This document shows, piece after piece, positions 2,377 to 34,786 of a DNA stretch of 34,786 nucleotides. Each line of letters starts with the position of its first letter. Within the stretch, counting starts at the first letter, position 1. A program made the position numbers and the translations under genes. Origin of the DNA: Bacteroidales bacterium (GTDB lineage Bacteria > Bacteroidota > Bacteroidia > Bacteroidales > P3). The DNA is taken from assembly GCA_024400545.1 (NCBI GenBank), contig JAKSMO010000025.1, positions 1 through 34,786 of the forward strand, given 5' to 3'. Below the pieces are notes generated by a model that saw nothing but the letters and a program-made list of their open reading frames with translations, searched no databases and had not been told where the DNA came from.

Positions 2377-2384
2377 TATATTTG
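2377..2384 (+). promoter_or_regulatory. -7 box TATATTTG ahead of structured leader
   Basis: TATATTTG fits the TAnnTTTG consensus. It lies 40 bases after the CPBP stop and about 270 bases ahead of the first gene of the unknown operon, giving a long 5' leader that includes the foldable segment at 2493-2645. No matching -33 TTTG at 19-bp spacing is seen, so this is a moderate call. Confidence 0.45.
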
Positions 2385-2492
2385 CAGTCAGAACAATTAA
2401 AACAAATAAACATTAAAATATTAATAATAAACAGATTACCAATGTAAAGAGAAATAGAAAATAGAAATATTATAGCGATTCGTTGCTATTCT

Positions 2493-2645
2493 TGACACCA
2501 AAATTTCCACAACATGCCCCCCAAAAGGGGCAACTCTTCAAGAATAGGTTACGAAACGCCGTGTGTTACGGCGTGGGATAACTTGTCGGAAGAGAGGGCG
2601 TGGAAACCCTGGTGTCAGACAGAAAGTTAATTCCACGTCTTTTTT
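2493..2645 (+). ncRNA. candidate structured leader RNA / transcription attenuator
   Basis: Hand pairing shows a nested fold. P1: 2493-2500 TGACACCA with 2610-2617 TGGTGTCA. P2: 2504-2510 TTTCCAC with 2600-2606 GTGGAAA. Hairpin P3: 2515-2520 TGCCCC with 2527-2532 GGGGCA. Then an arm of P4 (2534-2539 CTCTTC with 2589-2594), P5 (2546-2551 with 2579-2584, one G-U) and P6 (2556-2562 ACGCCGT with 2568-2574 ACGGCGT, loop GTGTT). A second pairing competes with P2: 2599-2605 CGTGGAA with 2631-2637 TTCCACG, directly followed by a T-rich run (2638-2645) typical of an intrinsic terminator. The ATG of the first operon gene is only 11 bases further. This is the layout of a riboswitch or attenuator, but it matches no class I know. 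The terminator loop is long (25 nt), so strength is uncertain. Confidence 0.55.
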
Positions 2646-2656
2646 ATGCACACACA

Positions 2657-3259
2657 ATGGCTGACAATGATTATCTGATTTTTCACGAAATGAAAGTGCC
2701 TCAGAGTGAGGACAAATATTACAATTCGCTATTCGAAGAACTAAAAGAGAAATGTAACCCAAGCAATTTCTTGGCATCATTCGACAAAGATAAGATGCTA
2801 ATTGCAAATGAGTTATTTGACAAGATTCTTAGCACAACTAGCCGAGAAGATACTGACTTGATTAGCCTGAGAAGTGAGGCCATAGAGAAACTCGGCATCC
2901 ATTTTTCTACACGCCGAAAGATGGAAGAACTCATGGGTTACCTCAATCCAAAACTATATACAGACAGAAAGCCGTATGACAAAAATTTGGTGGAGAACTC
3001 AATATATTTCTACGACAAAATCATTCAGAATCAAGATGATATCGTTCGGCTTGAAGAGATTGAAACAGAGGCGAAACCGTATTTTCTAAATGAAATAGTA
3101 AAAAGAGACCGAATCAAAGAATATGAAAGACAAAGAGAAAAGGAACTAGCTGAATACAAAGAGACTATGATGTTAGGCTATAAAACATGTTTCGGCGCAC
3201 TGCTAGTAATAGGTCTGATTGCTAGTATAGTAGTAGCCATAGTAGCTATCTGCTCTTAA
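2657..3259 (+). CDS. J-domain-like membrane protein, degenerate HPD (NPS), paralogue A
   Basis: A 200-residue protein and first gene of a six-gene operon. Residues 5-84 form a J-like helical segment: helix YYNSLFEELKEKC, then N34-P35-S36 where a J-domain would have HPD, then an AN-x-L-F helix and a final helix ending LGIHFS. A second shared motif (about 96-141, NPKLYT..RKPYD, FYDKI..NQDDI..LEEIE, AKP) is found again in the next protein. A charged coiled-coil-like stretch (145-170) leads to a C-terminal membrane helix (177-198), giving a tail-anchored topology with the J-like part cytoplasmic. Loss of HPD suggests it no longer stimulates Hsp70 ATPase. I start at ATG 2657, just after the leader terminator-like structure; upstream codons of the frame lie inside that RNA fold. 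Function unknown. Confidence 0.75.
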   Translation: MADNDYLIFHEMKVPQSEDKYYNSLFEELKEKCNPSNFLASFDKDKMLIANELFDKILSTTSREDTDLISLRSEAIEKLGIHFSTRRKMEELMGYLNPKLYTDRKPYDKNLVENSIYFYDKIIQNQDDIVRLEEIETEAKPYFLNEIVKRDRIKEYERQREKELAEYKETMMLGYKTCFGALLVIGLIASIVVAIVAICS

Positions 3260-3269
3260 CATTAATAAT

Positions 3270-3902
3270 ATGGACAACAAAGACTATCTTATTTTTCACA
3301 ATATGACTCCTCAAAGAAGTGAGGAGAAACAATACGAAACTCTTTATCAAGAGCTTTTGGAGAAATGTCATCCAAACAACTTCATGCAGCCATACGACAA
3401 AGAGAAAGTTGACACAGCAAATACGATATTTGCTAAGTTGCAAAGCAATCCTTACGCAACTGACTTTGAACTAAAGGAATTGCGGTTATTGGCAGTGCAA
3501 GGGCTTCGAATCCACATTTCCACACAAAAATTGTATGAATATTTAATGCAATATTGTGATCCACAATTATACACATCACGAGTACCCTATGATGCAGAAT
3601 TAGTAAACCAGGCTAATGCTTTTTACTCACAAATTCTTGATAACAAAGATGACATCTTTGAGCTAGAAAAGATTGAACTCATAGCGAAGCCATTGATTGA
3701 TAGAGAGAATGAAAGGAAACAACAAATTGAAAGAGAGAGAGAAGAGAGTGAAAGGCAAAAAAAACTTAAAGAAGAAGAAGAATATAAAAAGATTCAAATT
3801 CAGGCAGATTTAGAGTATAAGGCAGACATAAAAAGATTCTATATTGCATTAGCAATAACAATAATAACATTAACAATAATAGTTATAATAACAGAATTAT
3901 AA
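3270..3902 (+). CDS. J-domain-like membrane protein, degenerate HPD (HPN), paralogue B
   Basis: 210 residues, 10 bases downstream of paralogue A and clearly homologous to it from end to end. Both begin with DYLIFH, and the HPD position (34-36) reads H-P-N, so only the Asp is lost. The AN-x-I-F helix, the LRIHIS end of the J-like unit, and the second motif (DPQLYT.R.PYD, FYSQI..NKDDI..LEKIE..AKP) are all retained. The coiled-coil stretch is longer and almost purely Glu/Lys/Arg (about 146-182), followed by a C-terminal isoleucine/threonine-rich membrane helix (about 189-208). A tail-anchored cytoplasmic protein is predicted. The pair probably arose by tandem duplication and may form a hetero-oligomer through the coiled coils. 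No known function. Confidence 0.75.
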   Translation: MDNKDYLIFHNMTPQRSEEKQYETLYQELLEKCHPNNFMQPYDKEKVDTANTIFAKLQSNPYATDFELKELRLLAVQGLRIHISTQKLYEYLMQYCDPQLYTSRVPYDAELVNQANAFYSQILDNKDDIFELEKIELIAKPLIDRENERKQQIEREREESERQKKLKEEEEYKKIQIQADLEYKADIKRFYIALAITIITLTIIVIITEL

Positions 3903-3912
3903 ATACAGAACT

Positions 3913-4305
3913 ATGCCTATATCAAATTGGTGGAACCGAGTAATTAGTTGGTTCCAAGACAGAAATTCAAGAAATGAATTAATCCGCGACTTCAACAAAG
4001 CCGCTAGAGAATCTTTTGTAATGGGGCTTTCGCCCGTGATTATGGAAGCTAGCATCTCAAAAGGAGAGCCTACCTACCGACATGCTTTCTCAAAGACAAT
4101 TGGCGGTACTGGATTTAGAATCAAGGCCATGACAGGGATGCAACTTTCAAAAGATGAGATAGTTTCCTTAGGTACTACCATTTTGAGCAACGACACTTTG
4201 GTGAGAAGATTGGTCGTATTGGGTTGGGATACCTTGGAAATTCACTGCGACACAGGAATATACGGATGTCGTTGGCAATTGAGAGATTATATGTTGTTGA
4301 ACTAA
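3913..4305 (+). CDS. hypothetical protein (130 aa) in J-like operon
   Basis: I do not recognise this protein. It is soluble with an amphipathic, tryptophan-rich N-terminus (PISNWWNRVISWF) and a mixed alpha/beta body. A central conserved-looking part, RHAFSKTIGGTGFRIKAMTG, is followed by SKDEIVSLGTTIL and ends in a segment with two cysteines (IHCDTGIYGCRWQLRDYML). There is no signal peptide or membrane span. It lies 10 bases after paralogue B and 14 before the next gene, so it is co-transcribed. Composition suggests a cytoplasmic partner of the flanking membrane-anchored J-like proteins, which is inference only. Confidence 0.65.
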   Translation: MPISNWWNRVISWFQDRNSRNELIRDFNKAARESFVMGLSPVIMEASISKGEPTYRHAFSKTIGGTGFRIKAMTGMQLSKDEIVSLGTTILSNDTLVRRLVVLGWDTLEIHCDTGIYGCRWQLRDYMLLN

Positions 4306-4319
4306 AACATTGATTAACC

Positions 4320-4733
4320 ATGAATGATACCTTATTGCGAAGTGCTACAGACACTTGTACATCGGCCACAACAGTCGCAAATTCCATAAATTGGTGGATG
4401 GTTATTGCCATTATAGAACTAGCGCTAATCATTGCTTTGCTAATATTTCGTGGCAAGAAAAAACAAGTTGACCGAAAAGACGAAATCAAACACAAAGTAA
4501 TGAATGAAGGTGAGATTGACTTCGGTAATGTAATCAATAGCGCATTTGCATCGGATGAGCTATATAAGAAACTGATTCGCAGTTGTCATCCCGACCGCTT
4601 CCCGGGAGACGACGCTAAGATAGCCATCGCCAATGACTTGTCGAGCAGAATCACAAAGAGTCAAAGAGACCAAAAAGCGTTAAAAGCATTAAAAGAGGAA
4701 GCTGAACAAAAACTGAATATTCACATAAATTAA
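4320..4733 (+). CDS. membrane-anchored J-domain-like protein with intact HPD
   Basis: 137 residues. An N-terminal membrane helix (about 25-44) is followed by a Lys-rich linker and a C-terminal J-like unit: LYKKLIRSC, then H90-P91-D92, RF, then IANDLSSRITKSQRDQKALKALKEEAEQKLNIHIN. The HPD loop between two helices is the hallmark of J-domains, where it contacts Hsp70/DnaK. The unit is truncated compared with classic DnaJ (helix I is weak). The AN helix and the LxIHI(N/S) end are shared with the two upstream proteins, but the topology is reversed, with the anchor at the N-terminus. It is the only one of the three that could plausibly activate DnaK. Fourth gene of the operon. Substrate unknown. 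Confidence 0.75.
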   Translation: MNDTLLRSATDTCTSATTVANSINWWMVIAIIELALIIALLIFRGKKKQVDRKDEIKHKVMNEGEIDFGNVINSAFASDELYKKLIRSCHPDRFPGDDAKIAIANDLSSRITKSQRDQKALKALKEEAEQKLNIHIN

Positions 4734-34731: not shown

Positions 34732-34786
34732 GGCCCCGTAGTTCAGCTGAATAGAACGTCGGATTCCGGTTCCGAAAGTCGTGGGT
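34732..34786 (+). tRNA. tRNA-Arg (anticodon CCG), 3' end cut by window
   Basis: Starts GGCCCCG (acceptor) then TA. The D-arm is GTTC/GAAC. The anticodon stem TCGGA/TCCGA encloses the loop TTCCGGT, so the anticodon is CCG, reading CGG (Arg). The variable loop follows; the T-arm and the 3' acceptor lie beyond the window. Position 19 of the D-loop is A rather than the usual G. No TAnnTTTG box is evident; a T-run and AAACCA precede it. Confidence 0.85.

Follow-up and report, generated by a model that had tools for sequence, protein, structure and literature searches.

A candidate attenuator RNA with two covarying, mutually exclusive folds precedes diverse genes in Bacteroidia

Leader attenuators of the trp, his and leu type are built on the pairings 1:2, 2:3 and 3:4. 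In terminating riboswitches a complex conserved fold of the 5′ leader competes with a terminator-like hairpin, and the genes downstream of most metabolite riboswitches share a pathway. Within Bacteroides, the tetQ leader combines a short leader peptide with attenuation and exerts translational control over one resistance operon. Comparative genomics has added several RNAs from Bacteroidetes, among them Bacteroidales-1, Bacteroides-1, Bacteroid-trp and Flavo-1 (Weinberg 2010, PMC2864571), and the HMP2 candidate RNAs include some in Bacteroidetes, one of which is often found near radical SAM genes (Fremin and Bhatt 2021, PMC8040213). A Flavobacterium psychrophilum transcriptome paper reports 64 structured 5′ regions, none of which, in the portion of the paper compared here, is recognisable as the leader RNA described below. 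No published description of this RNA was found among the literature records listed, and six Bacteroidota names are absent from the main text of two ncRNA-discovery papers.

The leader RNA lies in a 34,786-nucleotide stretch of a Bacteroidales genome (contig JAKSMO010000025.1 of assembly GCA_024400545.1), the whole of which is referred to here as the window; its features are collected in Table 1. On comparative sequence data, we consider it quite likely that the leader is a cis-acting transcription attenuator belonging to an RNA family outside Rfam, in which four strands would change partners. Fold A would join strands 2 and 3 in the P5/P6 arm, locked by P1, P2 and P4, leaving the tail free so that transcription continues. 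In fold B, strand 1 would take up strand 2, and the pairing of strand 3 with the tail would give a long hairpin that, together with the U-run, would terminate transcription before the gene. Since each fold needs both strand 2 and strand 3, the two cannot coexist.

Table 1. Positions of the leader RNA features and neighbouring genes in the window
Feature	Position	Strand	Remark
Presumed Bacteroidota −7 promoter motif TATATTTG	2377–2384	+	match to TAnnTTTG
Start-stop mini-ORF ATGTAA	2442–2447	+	30 nt ahead of the element
Element copy in the window	2472–2645	+	one member of the RNA family
Strand 1	2472–2495	+	hairpin H0 (2472–2489) in fold A; helix B1 with strand 2 in fold B
P1	2492–2500/2610–2618	+	predicted fold
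Junction AAA	between P1 5′ strand (2492–2500) and P2 5′ strand (2504–2510)	+	
P2	2504–2510/2600–2606	+	predicted fold
P3 hairpin	2515–2520/2527–2532 (span 2515–2532)	+	predicted fold
P4	2534–2539/2589–2594	+	predicted fold; covariation 112/114
Strand 2 (P5/P6 5′ side)	2538–2563	+	partner is strand 3 (fold A) or strand 1 (fold B)
P5	2545–2551/2579–2585	+	predicted fold
P6	2556–2563/2567–2574	+	predicted fold
Strand 3 (P6/P5 3′ side)	2567–2587	+	partner is strand 2 (fold A) or tail, as helix B2 (fold B)
GGG, P2 3′ strand (2600–2606), CCC	2596–2609	+	small hairpin within the B2 loop in fold B
Strand 4 (tail 2618–2639 and U-run 2640–2645)	2618–2645	+	3′ arm of the terminator-like hairpin
First operon gene, 200 aa	2657–3259	+	no family above curated cut-off
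Following genes (210, 130 and 137 aa proteins)	3270–4733	+	no family above curated cut-off

The first-pass annotation of the window had described a leader of six nested helices, and fold prediction finds the helices where it placed them; a second prediction gave the same helices to within a base pair or two. The fold of 2480–2665 has a predicted energy of −62.8 kcal/mol, compared with −46.6 (sd 4.0) for shuffled sequences (z −4.1), and 1 of 200 shuffles was equally good. A sequence check bears out the annotation's remark that TTTCCAC at 2504 and TTCCAC at 2631 are each complementary to GTGGAA at 2600, but GTGGAA is not, as it had supposed, the single partner: the tail also pairs with 2570–2578 (GGCGTGGGA), with one G-U pair. 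Its description of a U-rich run followed by the ATG of the first gene is right for the run, six T at 2640–2645, but the frame that begins with the ATG at 2646 is short, and the first gene most likely starts at the ATG at 2657. The annotation had named no matching riboswitch class, and comparison with Rfam agrees. No Rfam 15 family reached the gathering threshold at the element, whether in the window or in the 40 other loci scanned, and a permissive search of the window leader (E up to 5) returned two chance-like hits only, on the other strand. Flavo-1 (RF01705) does not match at the element; its sole match, at 1048–1123 of locus L073, is separated by 378 nt from the element copy that follows it.

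The leader does not belong to this operon alone. Its relatives precede different genes, so the conserved unit is the leader itself, which stands ahead of many unrelated genes. Searching by blastn with the 181-nt leader identified ten loci, including that of the window, in 7 of 61 genomes. A covariance model built from ten copies (R1) found the RNA in 35 of the 120 genomes searched from the window's genus and in 47 of 190 genomes of the family, spread over 9 of 12 genera, and exposed a further subclass that has diverged more. The model made for this subclass (R2), whose training set includes Eco57I-type loci, identified 503 copies within the genus, where 112 of 119 genomes have the RNA and single genomes up to 11 copies. 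Across the class R2 matched 80 of 395 genomes in 49 of 197 genera, and in a sample of the phylum it matched 18 of 296 genomes, namely the window's genome and others of the same order or class. In searches over 40 genomes, 7–25 candidates were scored per genome, so copy and genome counts are lower bounds. An exact strong-class pattern occurs in 13 named records, all from uncultured Bacteroidales or Bacteroidetes and several from rumen or other forestomach samples. P3 forms a hairpin in all 34 strong-class copies, and the weak class has a loop of median length 7 nt there. The window's own genome holds four copies at E < 0.001 and a fifth at 0.0025. Two copies in this genome (L121 on contig C11 and L122 on contig C62) are longer variants of 207 and 214 nt with additional sequence in the P5/P6 arm, and adjoin downstream proteins with an exported look.

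Whether the predicted helices are conserved as helices was judged in two ways, one of which, an own-versus-cross test, started from 195 copies, of which 114 are non-redundant after those at ≥ 0.80 similarity were dropped. The 195 leave out an off-register hit (L072:1435–1588), L105, which is the window again, four A6 rows, and the weak-class A4 rows counted elsewhere. In 80 copies aligned with R2, standard pairs fill 91.2% of cells compared with 63.2% after shuffling, 885 cells are changed on both sides compared with 272 in shuffles, and both-side changes occur in 36 of 40 fold A pairs; the covariation score of fold A is 0.739, that of shuffled alignments 0.217 and that of slid partners at most 0.088, all in an alignment that was fitted to the model structure and favours it. 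In the own-versus-cross test, duplex energies were computed for each of the 114 copies, once with both segments taken from that copy and once with one of them replaced by a segment of another copy. Own pairings were better than the cross median in 114/114 copies for both P1 and P2, in 112/114 for P4 and, for the P5/P6 arm that joins strands 2 and 3, in 104/114 (t −12.2). The covariance models and tests thus answer the first-pass suggestion that paired positions be examined in homologues: the fold A helices covary, far beyond chance, across the relatives.

The same test supports the helices of fold B, which is encoded in no model; its segments were cut by way of alignments fitted to fold A. For B2, the pairing of strand 3 (2570–2587) with the tail, own segments were better in 109/114 copies (t −15.3; own mean −18.7, cross mean −13.5 kcal/mol) and, with a new random draw, in 108/114 (t −15.1). 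For B1, formed by strands 1 and 2 (2475–2495 with 2538–2559), the count was 93/114 (t −9.7), and the 3′ part of strand 1 paired alone with strand 2 gave 94/114 (t −8.1). Covariation with strand 2 was absent for the 5′ part of strand 1 (H0) taken alone (51/114 and 54/114); that B1 extends through H0 is therefore read from the sequence of single copies, the window's among them. There, B1 consists of GCG/CGC, TTCGT/ACGAA and CTATTCTTGA/TCAAGAATAG, and B2 pairs GGCGTGGGATAACTTGTC with GACAGAAAGTTAATTCCACGTC (2618–2639) around a loop of about 30 nt and is followed by six U. Seven control pairings gave t values between −1.0 and 0.8; in broader controls, strand 1 with the tail gave 66/114 and the 5′ side of P1-P2 with the tail 65/114, the pair having t values of −1.6 and −1.7. 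Two incompatible folds are both backed by covariation in the 114 non-redundant copies.

This outcome modifies the exclusive-pairing switch proposed in the first-pass annotation. A terminator-like alternative exists and both folds covary, but the specific exchange it had put forward, between the tail (2631) and the 3′ strand of P2 (2600–2605), shows no covariation (46/114, t −0.3); the conserved partner of the tail is 2570–2587. A run of at least five T follows the tail in 95/114 copies, compared with 13/114 upstream control windows. The test also hints that in a subset the tail pairs with sequence beyond the U-run (67/114, t −4.0). For example, in four loci (L083, L064, L068 and L106) the tail (AATGTCCC) is complementary to sequence just past the U-run, such as GGGACATT, and the sequence after the U-run is a possible third partner of the tail, upstream of the start codon, in these copies.

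Both states were folded, as had been recommended. In the window (2390–2645) fold A has a predicted energy of −67.7 and a forced fold B −60.8 kcal/mol. Over the 114 copies the means are −53.1 and −46.1 kcal/mol, with an average advantage of 7 for fold A, which has the lower energy in 104 of them. This weighs against fold B at equilibrium, so fold B would need a kinetic advantage or an inducer; the energies suggest that one of these lies behind it. In 57 copies, the terminator half compared with shuffles has a mean z of −3.4 and the transcript before the tail a mean z of −6.9. When minimum-energy folds were predicted for transcripts of increasing length, B1 was present at all 3′ ends tested from 2552 to 2588. 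With the 3′ end at 2594 B1 was lost and H0 had returned; P2 had formed by 2606 and P1 by 2618. This order would place the choice of fold at the time when polymerase is at about 2588–2618, before the tail. We infer that an input, which might be a small molecule, a protein or a ribosome at the mini-ORF, would act on the step between strand 1 and strand 2 in this interval and would thereby set whether transcription terminates. Three points speak against an attenuator: the greater stability of fold A, the lack of covariation of H0 on its own, and the length of the B2 loop, since terminator loops are usually shorter than about 30 nt.

In its pairing logic the leader resembles the trp-type attenuators. 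It has four strands, the exclusive pairings 1:2, 2:3 and 3:4 are all found, an antiterminator 2:3 opposes 1:2 plus a terminator 3:4, a U-run lies between the last hairpin and the first gene, and some copies carry a short upstream ORF. It differs in the additional covarying helices P1, P2 and P4 that bracket the 2:3 arm, in an ORF that is start-stop or very short and present in a minority of copies, and in downstream genes that are not biosynthetic. No leader peptide was found whose regulatory codons overlap strand 1, the mini-ORFs being upstream of that strand, and for this reason we do not file the leader as trp-type despite the pairings and the U-run; by analogy, it may work like such an attenuator with three long-range helices locking the antiterminator. 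With terminating riboswitches it shares exclusive terminator and antiterminator folds, but it has a 5′ competitor strand besides the 3′ one, no shared downstream pathway and no Rfam match, and as direct ligand binding would define a riboswitch, we do not class the leader as one. By description, the tetQ leader is likewise a Bacteroidota leader with a very short ORF, but that system is translational and serves a single resistance operon. The RNAs of Weinberg 2010 (PMC2864571) are also families from the same phylum identified by comparative genomics, but those that are in Rfam give no match here; GUCCY-hairpin, which has no Rfam entry in Table 1 of that paper, falls outside the comparison. The HMP2 candidates (PMC8040213) were compared by their main-text description only, and some may overlap with the present family.

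Upstream of the element, most copies carry TAnnTTTG, which we take to be the Bacteroidota −7 promoter motif. In a redundant set of 116 copies, the upstream 160 nt contain it 115 times, compared with 12.5 expected from mononucleotide shuffling, and it lies within 100 nt of 82/114 non-redundant copies. In some copies a minimal reading frame precedes the element. Start-stop or one-codon mini-ORFs, at about −24 to −45, are seen in different families (ATGTAA, ATGAAATAA, ATGGCATAA, ATGGTATAA and ATGACATAA). These frames bear on one alternative to a ligand, namely that a ribosome on the start-stop mini-ORF picks the fold. The ribosome would decide as it does in trp or his leaders, but there is no codon to read, so such an attenuator would report translation initiation or termination. 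In its favour, 34 of 36 ATGs at −24 to −36 meet a stop codon no more than two codons later, compared with 20 of 83 elsewhere in the leader (Fisher p 2e-13), and the sequences themselves differ between copies (ATGTAA, ATGAAATAA, ATGACATAA, ATGGCGTAA and others). However, an ATG followed by zero to two codons and a stop at −24 to −36 occurs in just 33/114 non-redundant copies, these position windows were chosen post hoc, and with a promoter motif less than 45 nt away the mini-ORF is no commoner than chance predicts (3/17 compared with 2.9 expected). Sixty further loci of the genus gave 26/29 compared with 14/54, but these represent only 6 non-redundant elements and so add little independent support. 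Moreover, the stop codon lies roughly 15–30 nt upstream of strand 1, and a ribosome there, given its footprint, would scarcely reach over that strand. On balance we regard a ribosome-coupled mechanism as rather unlikely. More speculative still, and in our opinion a long shot, is a Bacteroidia-wide switch in which the mini-ORF senses whether ribosomes initiate or terminate at all, rather than the shortage of a particular amino acid. Restriction-modification and envelope genes would in this way respond to the state of translation, for example under phage attack or inhibitor stress.

Alternatively, the attenuator could be a riboswitch, with an aptamer formed in fold A at the junctions of P1, P2 and P4 (AAA, GGN, NCC and a U-rich strand) and stabilised by ligand binding. 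Outside the fold A helices, conserved positions include AAA before P2 (77, 97 and 93% A), CC after P2 (96 and 89% C) and the U-rich strand after P2; the absence of an Rfam match would also suit a new class. However, the GG and CC that flank the 3′ strand of P2, present in 108/114 copies, could be explained by the small hairpin of fold B, for which covariation of GG with CC is weak (51/114, t −2.4), and the downstream genes have no shared pathway among the families listed, in contrast to most metabolite riboswitches. We considered gene function as a clue to a ligand and set it aside for the same reason. A ligand-binding riboswitch is a possibility that we take seriously but do not favour. The promoter motif and terminator-like end would also suit an independent small RNA that adjoins genes by chance. 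This seems very unlikely given two covarying exclusive folds and the strand bias of the next frame; moreover, P1 and P2 differ in sequence between copies within one genome (G165, L123–L128), which argues against a shared trans target. Many copies per genome ahead of unrelated genes might also be expected of a DNA-level or mobile repeat (REP-like or attC-like) with no RNA function, but the orientation bias, the upstream promoter motif, the downstream U-run and the covariation of the long-range helices of two alternative folds make this hardly credible. In addition, viral contigs contain no match to two exact patterns, which would miss variants. A mobile or phage origin was likewise rejected: besides the result for viral contigs, only one plasmid record is involved, Rhizosphaericola mali pB3-10, matched by blastn with the related copy L096. 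The same copy has no blastn match in phage records, and the window leader has no match in plasmids.

A cis-acting attenuator, the reading we prefer, would act on the gene that follows, and the orientation of downstream frames is consistent with this. Over 600 nt downstream of the element, the longest open frame shares its strand in 100 of 112 copies; over 600 nt upstream it does so in 21 of 49. When the strand of the element was searched for ATG frames of at least 55 aa, one began within 80 nt in 128 of 185 copies, and a further 13 copies had none. Among the Pfam families listed (25 of 75) for the 114 class-wide downstream proteins, the commonest are N6_N4_Mtase (6) and MmeI (5), followed by response regulators and N6_Mtase (3 each) and by Eco57I, TonB plug and others (2 each). 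Many other downstream proteins are lipoproteins or exported, judged by their N-termini. Restriction-modification is the commonest recognisable enzyme group in these annotations, and the genes are very diverse overall. PADLOC methyltransferase and type IIG models match 8 of 10 proteins hand-picked as likely restriction-modification, and with L118, which has a weak MmeI hit just under cut-off, nine such proteins were confirmed singly in the class-wide set. In the genus set, 27 of 59 proteins were judged from their annotations to be methyltransferases or to act in restriction or as helicase-nucleases, a count that includes two truncated frames assigned by N-terminus; this share is biased upward, since the loci are redundant high-scoring R2 hits representing 6 non-redundant elements and R2 was trained partly on Eco57I-type loci. 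For comparison, 88 upstream frames from the same sets include ResIII once and YhcG nuclease four times among the families listed (25 of 89).

If the attenuator reading is true, a sizeable share of Bacteroidia uses one RNA family outside Rfam to control many unrelated genes, including restriction-modification enzymes, whose dosage matters. The family would then allow the control of defence genes by RNA to be tested, and would offer a switch of four strands in which both folds can be read from covariation, as well as a start-stop ORF at a locked position ahead of the element.

The genes behind individual copies give some further indications. In the window, protein family searches gave sub-cut-off hits only, and the first protein has no Pfam family listed. 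By eye, the proteins encoded at 2657–3259 and 3270–3902 look like paralogues and have a C-terminal membrane segment. The fourth protein (4320–4733) has no Pfam match above cut-off and carries an HPDRF motif, which we take to be reminiscent of J domains. A tRNA at 34732–34786 is cut off by the end of the window. In another genome with eleven copies (G209, L046–L055), seven precede similar secreted proteins that share a CPIPQWCP start.
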